IMG/VR virus record: IMGVR_UViG_3300000525_000043
Span: 1 to 23,786 of that record
DNA from: a virus
Strand: one strand, 5' to 3'
Length of the DNA: 23,786 nt
Shown here: positions 5,161-16,789 of the stretch, in pieces
Numbering within the stretch: the first letter of the stretch is position 1
How the letters are laid out: every line of letters begins with the position of its first letter
Made by a program: the position numbers and the translations under genes
The notes under the pieces: generated by a model
Database searches by the model: none
What the model was told of the DNA's origin: nothing
The model's input: only the letters and a program-made list of their open reading frames with translations

Positions 5161-5168
5161 TATATTTG
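5161..5168 (+). promoter_or_regulatory. Promoter -7 box TATATTTG for the ssDNA-binding protein
   Basis: Exact TAnnTTTG box, 17 nt after a seven-T tract and 29 bp before the ATG at 5198. It gives the ssDNA-binding protein, a product needed in large amounts, its own promoter. Confidence 0.6.
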
Positions 5169-5197: not shown

Positions 5198-5734
5198 ATG
5201 AGCACAAGAATTATCACTGGAAACGTTAGATTTAGCTATGCCCATGTATTTGAGCCTACATCTCTTAACGAGGACCAACCAAAAAAGTTCAGTGTTTCAA
5301 TTGTAGTTGACAAGTCAGATAAGAAAACCCTGAAAAAAATTAGGGAAGCTATAACTGAAGCTAAGGAAGATGGAAAAGGAAAATTTGGGGGGAAAGTTCC
5401 TAAGAACCTAAAAACTCCACTTAGAGATGGGGATGAAGACCGGGAAGATGATGAAGCATACGAAGGCAAAATGTTTTTGACTGCCAACAGTAACCGTAAA
5501 CCTCAGATTGTTGATGAGAATCTAGACGAAATAATTAGCCAAGAAGAGTTCTACAGCGGTTGCTACGGCCGAGCATCACTATCATTTTATGCATATGATG
5601 CTGGGGGTAGTAAAGGTATTGCTTGTGGGCTTAACAACATCCAAAAACTAAAAGAAGGAGAACGTCTTGGTGGACAAATAAGTACTGCAGAAGAAGATTT
5701 CGGTGCAGATGACGACTCAGATGGGTTAATGTAA
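5198..5734 (+). CDS. DUF2815 single-stranded-DNA-binding protein
   Basis: 178 residues of the DUF2815 family, the ssDNA-binding proteins paired with DUF2800 nucleases and family A polymerases in many phages; fold related to T7 gp2.5. Visible: an N-terminal TGNVRFSYAHVFEP strand segment, a FSVSIVVDKSDKKTLKKI region, a basic/Gly-rich loop (GKGKFGGKVPKNLKT), FYSGCYGRASLSFYAYD and GIACGLNNIQKLKEGERLGG near the end, and a final acidic tail (EEDFGADDDSDGLM). Such acidic tails in phage SSBs contact polymerase and helicase. It coats ssDNA during replication and recombination. It has its own promoter-like box and is followed by a structured RNA segment rather than directly by the polymerase. Confidence 0.88.
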   Translation: MSTRIITGNVRFSYAHVFEPTSLNEDQPKKFSVSIVVDKSDKKTLKKIREAITEAKEDGKGKFGGKVPKNLKTPLRDGDEDREDDEAYEGKMFLTANSNRKPQIVDENLDEIISQEEFYSGCYGRASLSFYAYDAGGSKGIACGLNNIQKLKEGERLGGQISTAEEDFGADDDSDGLM

Positions 5735-5784
5735 TTGGCACTACATTATATGACTGAGATTATTAGTGTCTAACAAACCTAAGT

Positions 5785-5811
5785 GGTGGGTGAGTTCGTT
5801 ACTCATCCACC
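5785..5811 (+). other. Strong 11-bp RNA hairpin with 5-nt loop
   Basis: GGTGGGTGAGT (5785-5795) pairs fully with ACTCATCCACC (5801-5811), with one G-T wobble and loop TCGTT. No T-run follows, so it is not a standard terminator; it may be an mRNA 3'-end stabiliser for the SSB message or the first element of the RNA structure at 5820-5911. Confidence 0.65.
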
Positions 5812-5819
5812 TCACAAAC

Positions 5820-5911
5820 AAAGCCCCAACATTTAATTAGCAACAGTAATGCTATTATACAGTATGCAGTTTTCATAATTCTGCTATCTGTAGGTTGGGG
5901 TTTTATTTTTT
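5820..5911 (+). ncRNA. Candidate three-way-junction RNA with terminator-like 3' end
   Basis: Outer stem: AAAGCCCCAAC (5820-5830) with GTTGGGGTTTT (5894-5904), 11 pairs with one G-T wobble, followed by ATTTTTT to 5911. Inside it sit two further hairpins: TAGCA/TGCTA (5838-5842 and 5850-5854) with a 7-nt loop, and ACAG-tat-GCAG / CTGC-tat-CTGT (5859-5869 and 5881-5891) with an 11-nt loop and a symmetric internal loop. The segment is in the 199-bp gap between SSB and polymerase. It could be a terminator or attenuator controlling polymerase expression, a riboswitch-like leader, or a small RNA. It matches no class I can name; pairing was done by eye. Confidence 0.5.
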
Positions 5912-5933
5912 AAAGAAACAAGCACAGAGATAT

Positions 5934-7889
5934 ATGATAAAGCAACTACACATTGACGTGGAAACCTTTAGCTCAATATCAATTAAAGATTCAGGTCATT
6001 ATAAATATACACAAGCATTAGATTTTGAATGCTTAATGTGTGCCTACGCATTTGATAATGGGACGATAAAGGTAATAGACTTAGCGTTAGGGGAACAACT
6101 CCCAAAAGAATTCACGGATGCTCTAAAAAACCCAAGAGTAGAAAAACACGCACACAATGCCTCATTTGAAAGACAGGTGTTTAAAGCAATGGGTTACAAC
6201 ATACCCATAAACCAGTGGTACTGTAATGCTGTAAAGTCCGCATATTGTGGCTTACCTCTCTCTTTAGGTGGTGTATCTAAAGCCTTAGATTTAGGTGAAA
6301 AAGGGAAGTCTTCAGCAGGTATAGCTCTTATAAAGTTTTTCTGCATACCAATTAAACCTACAAAACGCAATGGCTATGCTGTAAGAAATTACGCATCAGA
6401 CAATTTAGAAAAGTGGGAGCAGTTTAAAGAATACTGCAACAGAGATGTTGAAGCAGAAAGAGAAATAGGCTACATACTATCTGAGTATAAAATACCACAA
6501 TTTGAAAGAGAAAACTACATACTTGACCAGGAGATAAATGACCGTGGCATTAAAGTAGATATTAAAATGGCTACAATATGTAGAGATATAAACTACAAGT
6601 ACGTAGCTAAGATAAAGGCCAAGATGATAGAATTATCTGGTGTAGAAAATCCCAACAGCCCCAAGCAGCTTAAAGATTGGCTCGGTAAGCACTTGCAAAG
6701 AGAAGTAAAATCATTAGCAAAAGATGACATCGAAGGATTAATCGAAGAAGCTGGCTTGGGCCCTGTTGCGGATGTTTTAAATTACCGTAGAAAAATAGCC
6801 AAAACCTCGACCACAAAATATATTGCGATGCTAAATTGCGCTTGTGATAATGACAGGGTTTACGGGCTCTTTCAATTCTATGGTGCTAACCGTACAGGTA
6901 GATGGGCTGGCAGGTTAGTACAACTTCAAAACCTACCTAGAAATTATATAAGTGATTTAGACGCCACTAGAGAGGCTGTAAAACAGGATGATTATGAATT
7001 GATCGAGATACTGTTTGAAGACGTCTCAGACATCTTATCTCAGCTGATACGAACCACGTTTGTTGCAAAACATGATCACACATTTGTAGTTGCTGACTTC
7101 AGCGCTATTGAAGCTAGAATATTATCATGGTTAGCAAAAGAAAAATGGAGAGAAGACGTATTTAGATCTCATGGAAAGATATATGAGGCATCTGCATCTT
7201 TAATGTTTAATGTACCGATAGAGGAAGTCACCAAAGGATCTGAACTGAGGAGTAAAGGTAAAAACGCAGAGTTAGCTCTAGGCTATCAAGGTGCAGTAGG
7301 TGCAATGGTTAGAATGGGGGGTGAAGAAATGGGTATGGACACGGCTGAAATGAAAGCTGTAGTTCGTAAATGGAGAAAAGCAAATCCAAACATAGTCAAA
7401 CTCTGGCATCACATGGGTGATTGTATGTACTCATGCCTAAAGAAAAGAGGCACAGTAAAATCTAACTACAATGGTATAACATTCCACTGTGATGATAAAT
7501 GCATAAGAATACAATTACCCTCTGGTAGATCTCTGTATTACTGGGACCCAGTGTTTAAACAAAACAAGTTTGGAGATCAAGCAGTAGCTTACAGAAACCT
7601 AGAGAAAAACCAATGGATATATGTTGAGACTTACGGAGGTAAAATTGTTGAGAATATAGTGCAAGCTATATCAAGAGACCTCTTAGCTGACTCAATGATA
7701 CGACTCGATAAAGCTGGGTTTGACATAACTATGCACGTTCATGATGAAGCTGTTGCAGAGCAACCTAATGCTGACGCAGAAGAAACCCTTAAATCAATGT
7801 GTGCTATAATGGGAGAAGATGTAACCTGGGCTAAAGGATTACCTTTAAAAGCAGATGGATATGTAACTAGATACTATAAAAAAGACTAA
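5934..7889 (+). CDS. Family A DNA polymerase with 3'-5' exonuclease domain
   Basis: 651 residues from the ATG at 5934. An upstream in-frame TTG at 5895 lies inside the RNA stem described above, so ATG 5934 is preferred. N-terminal DEDD exonuclease: Exo I HIDVETFS (D8, E10), Exo II HNASFERQ (N75), Exo III EYCNRDVEAE (Y167, D171). Polymerase: motif A VADFSAIEARIL (D388), motif B RSKGKNAELALGYQG (R439, K443), motif C MHVHDEAVAE (H603, D604). This is the replicative polymerase of the DUF2800/DUF2815 phage module. If the hydroxymethyl-dCMP pathway downstream is real, this enzyme would need to accept hydroxymethyl-dCTP. No intein or domain loss is seen. Confidence 0.95.
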   Translation: MIKQLHIDVETFSSISIKDSGHYKYTQALDFECLMCAYAFDNGTIKVIDLALGEQLPKEFTDALKNPRVEKHAHNASFERQVFKAMGYNIPINQWYCNAVKSAYCGLPLSLGGVSKALDLGEKGKSSAGIALIKFFCIPIKPTKRNGYAVRNYASDNLEKWEQFKEYCNRDVEAEREIGYILSEYKIPQFERENYILDQEINDRGIKVDIKMATICRDINYKYVAKIKAKMIELSGVENPNSPKQLKDWLGKHLQREVKSLAKDDIEGLIEEAGLGPVADVLNYRRKIAKTSTTKYIAMLNCACDNDRVYGLFQFYGANRTGRWAGRLVQLQNLPRNYISDLDATREAVKQDDYELIEILFEDVSDILSQLIRTTFVAKHDHTFVVADFSAIEARILSWLAKEKWREDVFRSHGKIYEASASLMFNVPIEEVTKGSELRSKGKNAELALGYQGAVGAMVRMGGEEMGMDTAEMKAVVRKWRKANPNIVKLWHHMGDCMYSCLKKRGTVKSNYNGITFHCDDKCIRIQLPSGRSLYYWDPVFKQNKFGDQAVAYRNLEKNQWIYVETYGGKIVENIVQAISRDLLADSMIRLDKAGFDITMHVHDEAVAEQPNADAEETLKSMCAIMGEDVTWAKGLPLKADGYVTRYYKKD

Positions 7890-13318: not shown

Positions 13319-15052
13319 ATGTTAGACAGAAAAAACAGCGCTGGACTTATGATAACCTTAGGGCATAACTCCAGCGCCGTATTCTATGATGGCACACAAA
13401 AGCCAATAGGATATGAGGAGGAAAGGCTCAATGGGATAAAATCAAGTTCTGCATTCCCGCAGAAATCAATTGAGGAGATAATAAGAAATGTTGAAGCTGC
13501 CAAATTGCAGGGTGCCAAGATATTTGTTTCACACTGGTTCGACACATTTGAACCTAGGTATTTCCCAGGTAAGTACTACGACTACGATTACATGCATCTG
13601 CTAATGAACAGATATGACATGAAACTCGTGCTGCTTTCAAGGGAGTTTACACACCACGATGCTCATGCATATTCTTCATTAGCATTTTTAGAGAACAGGA
13701 CTAATGCTGGGGTAGAAATAGAAACCAACACCCACTTTGTAGTTGCTGATGGTTTTGGAAATGAAAAGGAAGTTATATCAGTTTATAAATTAAGTGAACA
13801 AAAACCTGGTGAATTGGATTTAGTGAGCCGTATACATGGGTACGAAAGGTCATTGGGTTTATTATACCAATATGCCACTTCCTTTTGCGGTATGAAAGAA
13901 ACACAAGATGAGTATAAATTTCTTGGGTATGAGTCTAAAATAGAAGAGAATGTAAGCCTAGAAGGTATTCAGTTATTAAAGCATGAGTCATATCGTATTA
14001 CTGATTATATCTGGACTAGCATGGGTGGTGCTACGCCAAAAACCGAAGCTACAAAGCATTTAGACTCTGCTGCATTGCTGGGAGTTAAGCTTAGCTATCA
14101 CAATGAATTTGCTAAAATCATAGAGAGGTTAAAAGAAATTGAAGTTGTAGAACAGCCAACATCAGGTTTCATACGCAGTTCAATTGGTTTTGTAATACAA
14201 TCCTGTGTTGAGAATATAATGAGTAAAGTTATTTCTGCTTATGACATAGAAAATGTTGTATTATCTGGTGGGTGCTTTTATAATGTAAAGCTAAACAACC
14301 ACGTATTGACTAGAGTAAAAGGCCAAGTATGTGTTTTACCTTTAGCTGGTGATCAAGGTGCAGCAATAGGAATGTATAGAAAATACATAGGAGCATTTGA
14401 TTTTTCAGACCTATGTTTTGGCAAAAGGAAATTATCGAAAAAAGTTAACATAAATTTTACTTCGCCAGTAAAGTTTGTTGATTCTGAAGAGGAATTCATA
14501 CAGACTGTTGTAGAACTTATAGATAAGAACCACATAGTCAACGTCATGCATGGCGATATGGAGTTTGGACCAAGAGCTTTGTGTAACACAAGCACATTAG
14601 CTTTACCCACAGCAAAAAATGTTGCATACATAAATCACATAAACAGAAGGAATACAGTAATGCCTATGGCACCTGTAATACTCAATAAATATGTAGAGTG
14701 TGTGTTCGACAAATCTGAAAATGTTTCTAGAGTGTTAGCTTCAAATGAATACATGGTTATGACCCATGATATTTGCGAAGATGTATCATTATCTGAGAAA
14801 TACCAAGGTATTATTCATAAATACCCATTAGAGGCTAGGTATAGCGGGCGTCCTCAAATTGTAAGAGACAGAAGCACAATCATAGGAAAAATACTTGATA
14901 AAGCAAATTCCATGTGCTTGATAAACACATCTTTTAATACACATGGCACTCCAATACTGTTTAGTGTGTACGATGCTGTTTGGGACTTTACTAAGCAGCG
15001 GGCTTTAGACTATGAAAGATTAGCACATCTAGTAATTTTAACAAATGATTAG
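13319..15052 (+). CDS. NodU/CmcH-family O-carbamoyltransferase, probable 5-hydroxymethylcytosine carbamoyltransferase
   Basis: 577 residues, full length for the family. Kae1-like ATP/metal domain: TLGHNSSAVFYDG (13-25), HHDAH (112-116, metal ligands), VADGFGNE (142-149), LSGGCFYNVKLN (315-326), AGDQGAA (343-349). Then EFGPRAL (415-421), INRRNTVMPMAPVI (441-454), ARYSGRPQIV (506-515) and LINTSFNTHGTPI (534-546). The family transfers carbamoyl from carbamoyl phosphate via carbamoyl-AMP to a hydroxyl. Most members act on antibiotics or Nod factors; phage members are known that carbamoylate 5-hydroxymethylcytosine in DNA. Linked kinase, dUTPase-fold and dCMP-hydroxymethylase-like genes support that substrate. 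Oddity: the usual ALGNRS is ALCNTS here. Confidence 0.9.
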   Translation: MLDRKNSAGLMITLGHNSSAVFYDGTQKPIGYEEERLNGIKSSSAFPQKSIEEIIRNVEAAKLQGAKIFVSHWFDTFEPRYFPGKYYDYDYMHLLMNRYDMKLVLLSREFTHHDAHAYSSLAFLENRTNAGVEIETNTHFVVADGFGNEKEVISVYKLSEQKPGELDLVSRIHGYERSLGLLYQYATSFCGMKETQDEYKFLGYESKIEENVSLEGIQLLKHESYRITDYIWTSMGGATPKTEATKHLDSAALLGVKLSYHNEFAKIIERLKEIEVVEQPTSGFIRSSIGFVIQSCVENIMSKVISAYDIENVVLSGGCFYNVKLNNHVLTRVKGQVCVLPLAGDQGAAIGMYRKYIGAFDFSDLCFGKRKLSKKVNINFTSPVKFVDSEEEFIQTVVELIDKNHIVNVMHGDMEFGPRALCNTSTLALPTAKNVAYINHINRRNTVMPMAPVILNKYVECVFDKSENVSRVLASNEYMVMTHDICEDVSLSEKYQGIIHKYPLEARYSGRPQIVRDRSTIIGKILDKANSMCLINTSFNTHGTPILFSVYDAVWDFTKQRALDYERLAHLVILTND

Positions 15053-16781: not shown

Positions 16782-16789
16782 TATATTTG
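16782..16789 (+). promoter_or_regulatory. Promoter -7 box TATATTTG (module copy 1)
   Basis: Exact box, 17 nt after the terminator T-tract and 29 bp before the GTG of the SprT-like gene. The T-tract probably doubles as the upstream promoter element. Confidence 0.65.

Follow-up and report, generated by a model that had tools for sequence, protein, structure and literature searches.

A candidate branched terminator and a tRNA-top-half-like hairpin between the ssb and DNA polymerase genes of a viral genome

What kind of RNA occupies the 199-nt gap between the genes for the ssDNA-binding protein (ssb) and the DNA polymerase (pol) of a 23.8-kb virus record in IMG/VR? The original prediction had pointed to a highly structured RNA and proposed an attenuator, a riboswitch-like element or a small RNA. 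The whole stretch (23,786 nucleotides, hereafter the window) was analysed together with related loci. All features placed below between positions 5161 and 7889 are on the plus strand.

The ssb-pol gap and the fold of its RNA

The upstream neighbour (5198–5734) encodes an Enc34-type/Gp2.5-like ssDNA-binding protein, DUF2815 (Pfam PF10991, E 1.8e-71; PHROG 112, E 2.2e-68), and the downstream neighbour (5934–7889) a family A DNA polymerase (Pfam PF00476, E 2e-27; PHROG 17, E 7e-129), which most likely starts at the ATG at 5934 rather than at the upstream TTG at 5895. Among isolates, Croceibacter phage P2559Y (polymerase 57%, SSB 63%) and Bacteroides fragilis phages come closest, so the host is probably a member of the Bacteroidota. 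About 420 loci were fetched as relatives (labelled L001 and so on), the large majority with a relative of ssb and/or the polymerase gene, and ssb-pol gaps of 50–1300 nt are common among them. The gap had been singled out in a genome whose neighbouring genes usually overlap. This is true in part: of 31 gene junctions (from a gene list that we picked from the ORFs) about half are no longer than 5 nt, yet this gap of 199 nt ranks only fourth in size. Elsewhere in the window, a carbamoyltransferase gene (13319–15052; PF02543/PF16861) has thymidylate-synthase-like and dUTPase-like genes nearby (both named by eye), a neighbourhood possibly concerned with nucleotide or DNA modification.

Every piece of the structure originally drawn at 5785–5911 was recovered in the sequence and by folding. 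Hairpin 1 pairs 5785–5795 with 5801–5811 (11 bp, loop 5796–5800) at −19.6 kcal/mol (z −5.7). It is followed by a three-way junction, in which an 11-bp outer stem, AAAGCCCCAAC/GTTGGGGTTTT (5′ strand 5820–5830, 3′ strand 5894–5904), encloses inner hairpin A (5838–5854; 5 bp pairing 5838–5842 with 5850–5854, 7-nt loop ACAGTAA) and inner hairpin B (5858–5892; 5 bp and 4 bp, 5858–5862/5888–5892 and 5866–5869/5881–5884, separated by a symmetric 3×3 internal loop). The region 5775–5915 folds at −47.8 kcal/mol against −25 ± 3.4 in shuffles (z −6.7, 0 of 200), and no other 141-nt stretch of the whole window is as stable. Compared with shuffles the junction alone reaches z −4.3, and the inner hairpins without the outer stem show just modest significance (z −2.2, 4 of 200 shuffles); it is hairpin 1 and the outer stem, then, that give the fold its strength. 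The minus-strand fold is weaker (z −4.5) and lacks a good U-run.

A likely terminator upstream of the polymerase gene

The junction (5820–5911) is likely to be a branched intrinsic terminator. Its stable, GC-containing stem is followed directly 3′ by the U-run ATTTTTT (5905–5911), the expected termination point judging from its sequence and from analogous U-tailed stems before pol in the relatives, and the structure ends about 29–30 nt upstream of the pol ATG. Against this reading stands the apical part, which at 63 nt and branched is unusual for an intrinsic terminator; for the same reason a simple terminator scan, with loops of 3–8 nt, misses it. We scanned the gaps of the relatives for stems of at least 7 bp with a loop of up to 90 nt and a following U-run. 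Of 97 gaps, 41 had such a stem on the coding strand, compared with 15 on the other strand and 0–4 in shuffles, and in many relatives these stems end 11–38 nt 5′ of the pol ATG. Three loci (L053, L072, L389) carry a branched U-tailed stem with two inner hairpins 24–30 nt before pol, and in a fourth (L034), 18 nt before pol, the loop of the U-tailed stem is long and itself structured. Long-loop terminator stems as a group numbered 12 on the coding strand versus 9 on the minus strand, a contrast too weak to indicate selection for branching as such. The leader motif ACAAGCA (5918–5924 in the window), which eight near relatives also have, lies 10–26 nt before the pol ATG; from these distances and those of the U-run stems it follows that the 3′ end of a tRNA-like element or terminator often abuts the pol leader. 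The order of elements differs, the terminator being 3′ of hairpin 1 in the window and 5′ of the tRNA-like element in the nearest relatives.

Motif counting identified the Bacteroidota-type promoter −7 motif TATATTTG at 5161–5168, 30 nt before the ssb ATG. The window holds seven exact copies on the plus strand and none on the minus strand (1.2 expected per strand), all in intergenic gaps and most just 5′ of a gene. No exact copy was present in the ssb-pol gap, nor was the TAnnTTTG motif found on the plus strand of the gap. A scan for the Bacteroidota pattern TTTG-N-TAnnTTTG with a fixed −33 gave one match, outside this site, and a sigma-70 promoter scan gave 36 matches for 27.9 expected. With a promoter motif before ssb and none in the gap, the polymerase is probably expressed by read-through of the terminator. 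A long block, ATCAT.GTTATAAAGGTTTTTTTCAATTA..ATTTAATAG-TATATTTG, which occurs four times in intergenic DNA (at 16782, 17862, 21872 and 22649), is probably a second class of promoter.

The earlier terms 'terminator-like' and 'attenuator' suit a stem and U-run 29 nt before pol, the recurrence of U-tailed stems in the relatives and this placement of the promoter motif. In the mechanism that we propose, the terminator would stop part of the transcripts begun upstream of ssb, while the remaining ones would read through into the polymerase, helicase-primase and later genes, and SSB would thereby be made in excess over polymerase. We infer that termination at the U-run is partial; the motif placement suggests that the terminator probably reduces the amount of polymerase compared with that of SSB.

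tRNA-like elements in the slot and their likeness to hairpin 1

Searching the relatives for a T-arm plus a 7-bp acceptor returned 79 tRNA-like elements on the plus strand of 141 gaps (42 kb) and none on the minus strand. The flanking DNA (781 kb, both strands) contained 21, which corresponds to an approximately 140-fold enrichment in the gaps. There are 77 distinct elements, in 66 gaps. With the Rfam tRNA model, 20 loci (125 kb) gave 11 matches above threshold, all within the ssb-pol gap, and whole records usually contain a single clear Rfam tRNA match, again located in this gap. In P2559Y (NC_023614.1), the sole isolate where the element was matched to the annotation, it lies unannotated at 26696–26782. 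ARAGORN found no tmRNA in the gaps of the relatives.

A believable anticodon arm is present in about five of the 77 elements (L018, L072, L356, L403, L408); an automatic count gave nine, chance cases included. Ordinary tRNAs for Ser (L018), Gln (L072), Cys (L356) and Arg (L403) occur in the slot. The other elements have a reduced, extended or missing middle, the one in L017 being entirely without an anticodon arm, and those of L112, L375 and L390 approach a minihelix, with 8 nt from acceptor to T-stem and no D-arm. The nucleotide after the discriminator (C74) is C in 68 of the 77. As the elements were selected by pairing, their covariation count is partly circular; strand bias, position and 3′ tail are free of this circularity. 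The last tRNA-like element ends 3–40 nt before the pol ATG in 28 of the 66 gaps and at 41–87 nt in none. In the polymerase tree the window groups with L101, L361 and L373 (support 95), and all three of these relatives carry a tRNA-like element. Phage tRNAs with altered anticodon loops have been discussed as an escape from tRNA-targeting defences (PMC10264068); no RNAs that lack the anticodon arm and sit at one fixed locus turned up in that paper, and none of the open literature searched describes tRNA-like RNAs without an anticodon in the ssb-pol gap.

Several further observations were made in the slot. Thirteen gaps (L063, L111, L112, L367, L374, L375, L381, L383, L386, L390, L391, L398, L409) share a conserved TTTTTTGGTTTAAAAAAGTTAATCTTAGACCCG-like stretch between tRNA-like elements, in which GGTTTA/TAGACC is replaced by GATATA/TATATC in L063 and L383, in a pseudoknot-like manner. 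In L049 (3614–3790), and also in L050, L057 and L066, the element middle ATTCCATAATGCTGCTT could pair along about 16 nt with TAGCAGAATTATGGAAG, the start-codon region of the next ORF of 44–47 amino acids; the complementarity (z about −3) suggests start-codon masking. Very long gaps (about 720–740 nt in L013, L014, which is P2559Y, and L016; 1017 nt in L361) contain conserved blocks, with the tRNA-like element near the ssb end, and possibly hold larger structured RNAs. In L002 (2887–3000) a third tRNA-like element follows two others, its T-arm seemingly placed directly after the 5′ acceptor strand (permuted order).

The window gap contains no full tRNA-like element, unlike those of its three nearest relatives. 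RF00005 gave no match in the window even at E 10, no cloverleaf scored above the gathering cut-off, and ARAGORN returned nothing. A covariance model was also built from the tRNA top halves of 40 elements (R1; acceptor, T-arm and N-C, with the middle removed). Over the whole window with filters off, its best match was hairpin 1, extended to 5783–5815 (GTGGTGG-GTGAG-TTCGTTA-CTCAT-CCACCTC-AC; 23.3 bits, E 1.9e-4), and the second best (9.5 bits) was hairpin 1 itself on the opposite strand. The near-minihelix elements of L112, L375 and L390 score 22.8–23.6, and the maximum in 95 kb of control loci, whose gaps hold only hairpins, was 15.7 bits. Folded in this way, hairpin 1 places a 7-bp acceptor on a 5-bp T-stem (11 of 12 pairs, with U.U at pair 2), followed by the tail A-C-A-A at 5814–5817, which fits N-C-[AU]-A. 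A D-arm is absent. The T-loop UUCGUUA agrees with the element consensus UUCRANU in its first four positions but not at A58 and U60: position 58, an invariant A in the elements used, is U, and position 60, normally U, is A. Among 630 distinct hairpins with 12 bp and a 7-nt loop, collected from all loci, a TTCG-type loop start occurs in only four, namely two true T-arms, hairpin 1 and an AT-rich stem that lies within coding sequence of the window, and 30 of the 630 have an AC tail.

On balance, we consider it fairly probable that hairpin 1 is related to the tRNA-like element of the slot, in a reduced or decayed form, and we infer its descent from such an element; the simplest account is that the window lineage lost or reduced it. 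The hairpin would then be a remnant or minimal form of the slot RNA that keeps only the tRNA top half, that is the 7-bp acceptor, the 5-bp T-stem, the 7-nt loop starting with UUCG and the 3′ A-C tail. RNase P, which processes tRNA 5′ ends, cleaves hairpins of acceptor, T-stem and T-loop and measures 12 bp, and its binding is sensitive at A58 (PMC11143913). If still functional, hairpin 1 would most likely serve as a substrate for the host enzyme, and read-through mRNA would be separated into an ssb portion and a pol portion; by analogy with these substrates such processing may be entertained, with some doubt. With its mention of a small RNA the original prediction pointed the right way for this locus, where relatives hold tRNA-like RNAs whose top half hairpin 1 resembles, but it missed the link to tRNA.

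Alternative readings and comparison with known systems

Both parts of the gap could instead be plain transcription-stop or RNA-stabilising hairpins, the first an ordinary hairpin with UUCG by chance and the second a terminator. Strong hairpins are indeed frequent after ssb in this virus group, and the missing A58 and the missing tRNA family match in the window even at E 10 point the same way. Yet hairpin 1 has no U-run 3′ of it and is thus not a terminator, its top-half score of 23.3 lies well apart from the 15.7 or less of the hairpin-only control loci, its loop start (4 of 630) and tail (30 of 630) are rare, and every member of the supported clade has a tRNA-like element in the slot. We regard this explanation as rather unlikely. 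That the junction and its U-run form a trans-acting small RNA of about 90–130 nt is improbable: the terminator would give it a defined 3′ end and relatives clearly hold RNA genes in the same slot, but the gap lacks the TAnnTTTG promoter motif on the plus strand, no homologue was found and the inner loops are not conserved.

An attenuator that senses a ligand or a protein, either like a riboswitch or through autoregulation by SSB or polymerase, and that switches polymerase expression would suit the location upstream of pol, the branched apical part and the slight excess of stability that the inner part has over shuffles (z −2.2). The results nevertheless make it very improbable, and the riboswitch-like reading of the original prediction is accordingly given little credence. 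Rfam searches of the window, at the gathering threshold and at E 10, returned nothing but one chance snoRNA match; neither a curated family nor a conserved covarying core, the marks of a riboswitch or known structured RNA, was found. The junction has no sequence homologue, is absent from the nearest relatives and is not conserved at 58–63% polymerase identity. No anti-terminator pairing was noticed in a non-systematic look, and antisense pairing of either gap element to the pol or ssb start was not above chance. A pattern scan of IMG/VR with the outer stem and loop gave seven unrelated chance matches, none with the window proteins, and DNA comparison of the window with phages gave short chance matches only.

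Taking both parts together, we lean slightly towards a gap with two RNA elements on one transcript, a branched terminator and a remnant or minimal tRNA-like hairpin that, if still functional, would be processed by RNase P. The direct observations behind it are that the RNA folds as described, that terminators and tRNA-like elements recur in the gap, and that the top-half model matches hairpin 1. More tentatively, viral tRNA-like RNAs of this kind may make up an undescribed class, of which the window would contain the smallest natural form known. Its members would be fixed between ssb and pol of Bacteroidota viruses, with the top half selected and the decoding half lost or replaced, and would act outside translation as processing signals, as decoys for tRNA-targeting defences or as regulators of the next gene. 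If this is true, the ssb-pol slot of a widespread virus group houses mostly non-decoding tRNA-like RNAs, and this raises the question of their role in infection. A vague 'structured RNA' has in this way been resolved into a candidate terminator that would set the ratio of SSB to polymerase, and a minihelix that may be an RNase P substrate.

As a variant, the window terminator falls within a known class of element; the tRNA-like slot is undescribed in the open literature searched. With intrinsic terminators the window terminator shares a GC-rich stem, A-run/U-run flanks, the ATTTTTT directly after it and recurrence after ssb in relatives; it differs in its 63-nt apical loop with two hairpins in place of a loop of 3–8 nt. 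The slot elements of the relatives resemble tRNA (RF00005) and phage tRNA genes in having an acceptor, a D-arm-like part and a T-arm (GTTCGANTC), but most lack a canonical anticodon arm, and no more than the acceptor/T-arm hairpin is left in the window. The minihelices of acceptor and T-arm that serve as model substrates of RNase P and belong to external guide sequence work, and that are known to be cleaved (PMC11143913), have the same 12-bp coaxial helix, 7-nt T-loop and single-stranded 3′ tail; hairpin 1, a candidate substrate, differs from them as a natural viral sequence whose T-loop lacks A58 and whose tail is ACAAA, not RCCA. Although it concerns a bacterial virus and a single slot, and processing is here predicted, the arrangement also recalls the tRNA punctuation of mitochondria: a tRNA-like element lies between two genes on the same strand, and in 28 of 66 gaps its 3′ end is placed 3–40 nt before the next start.
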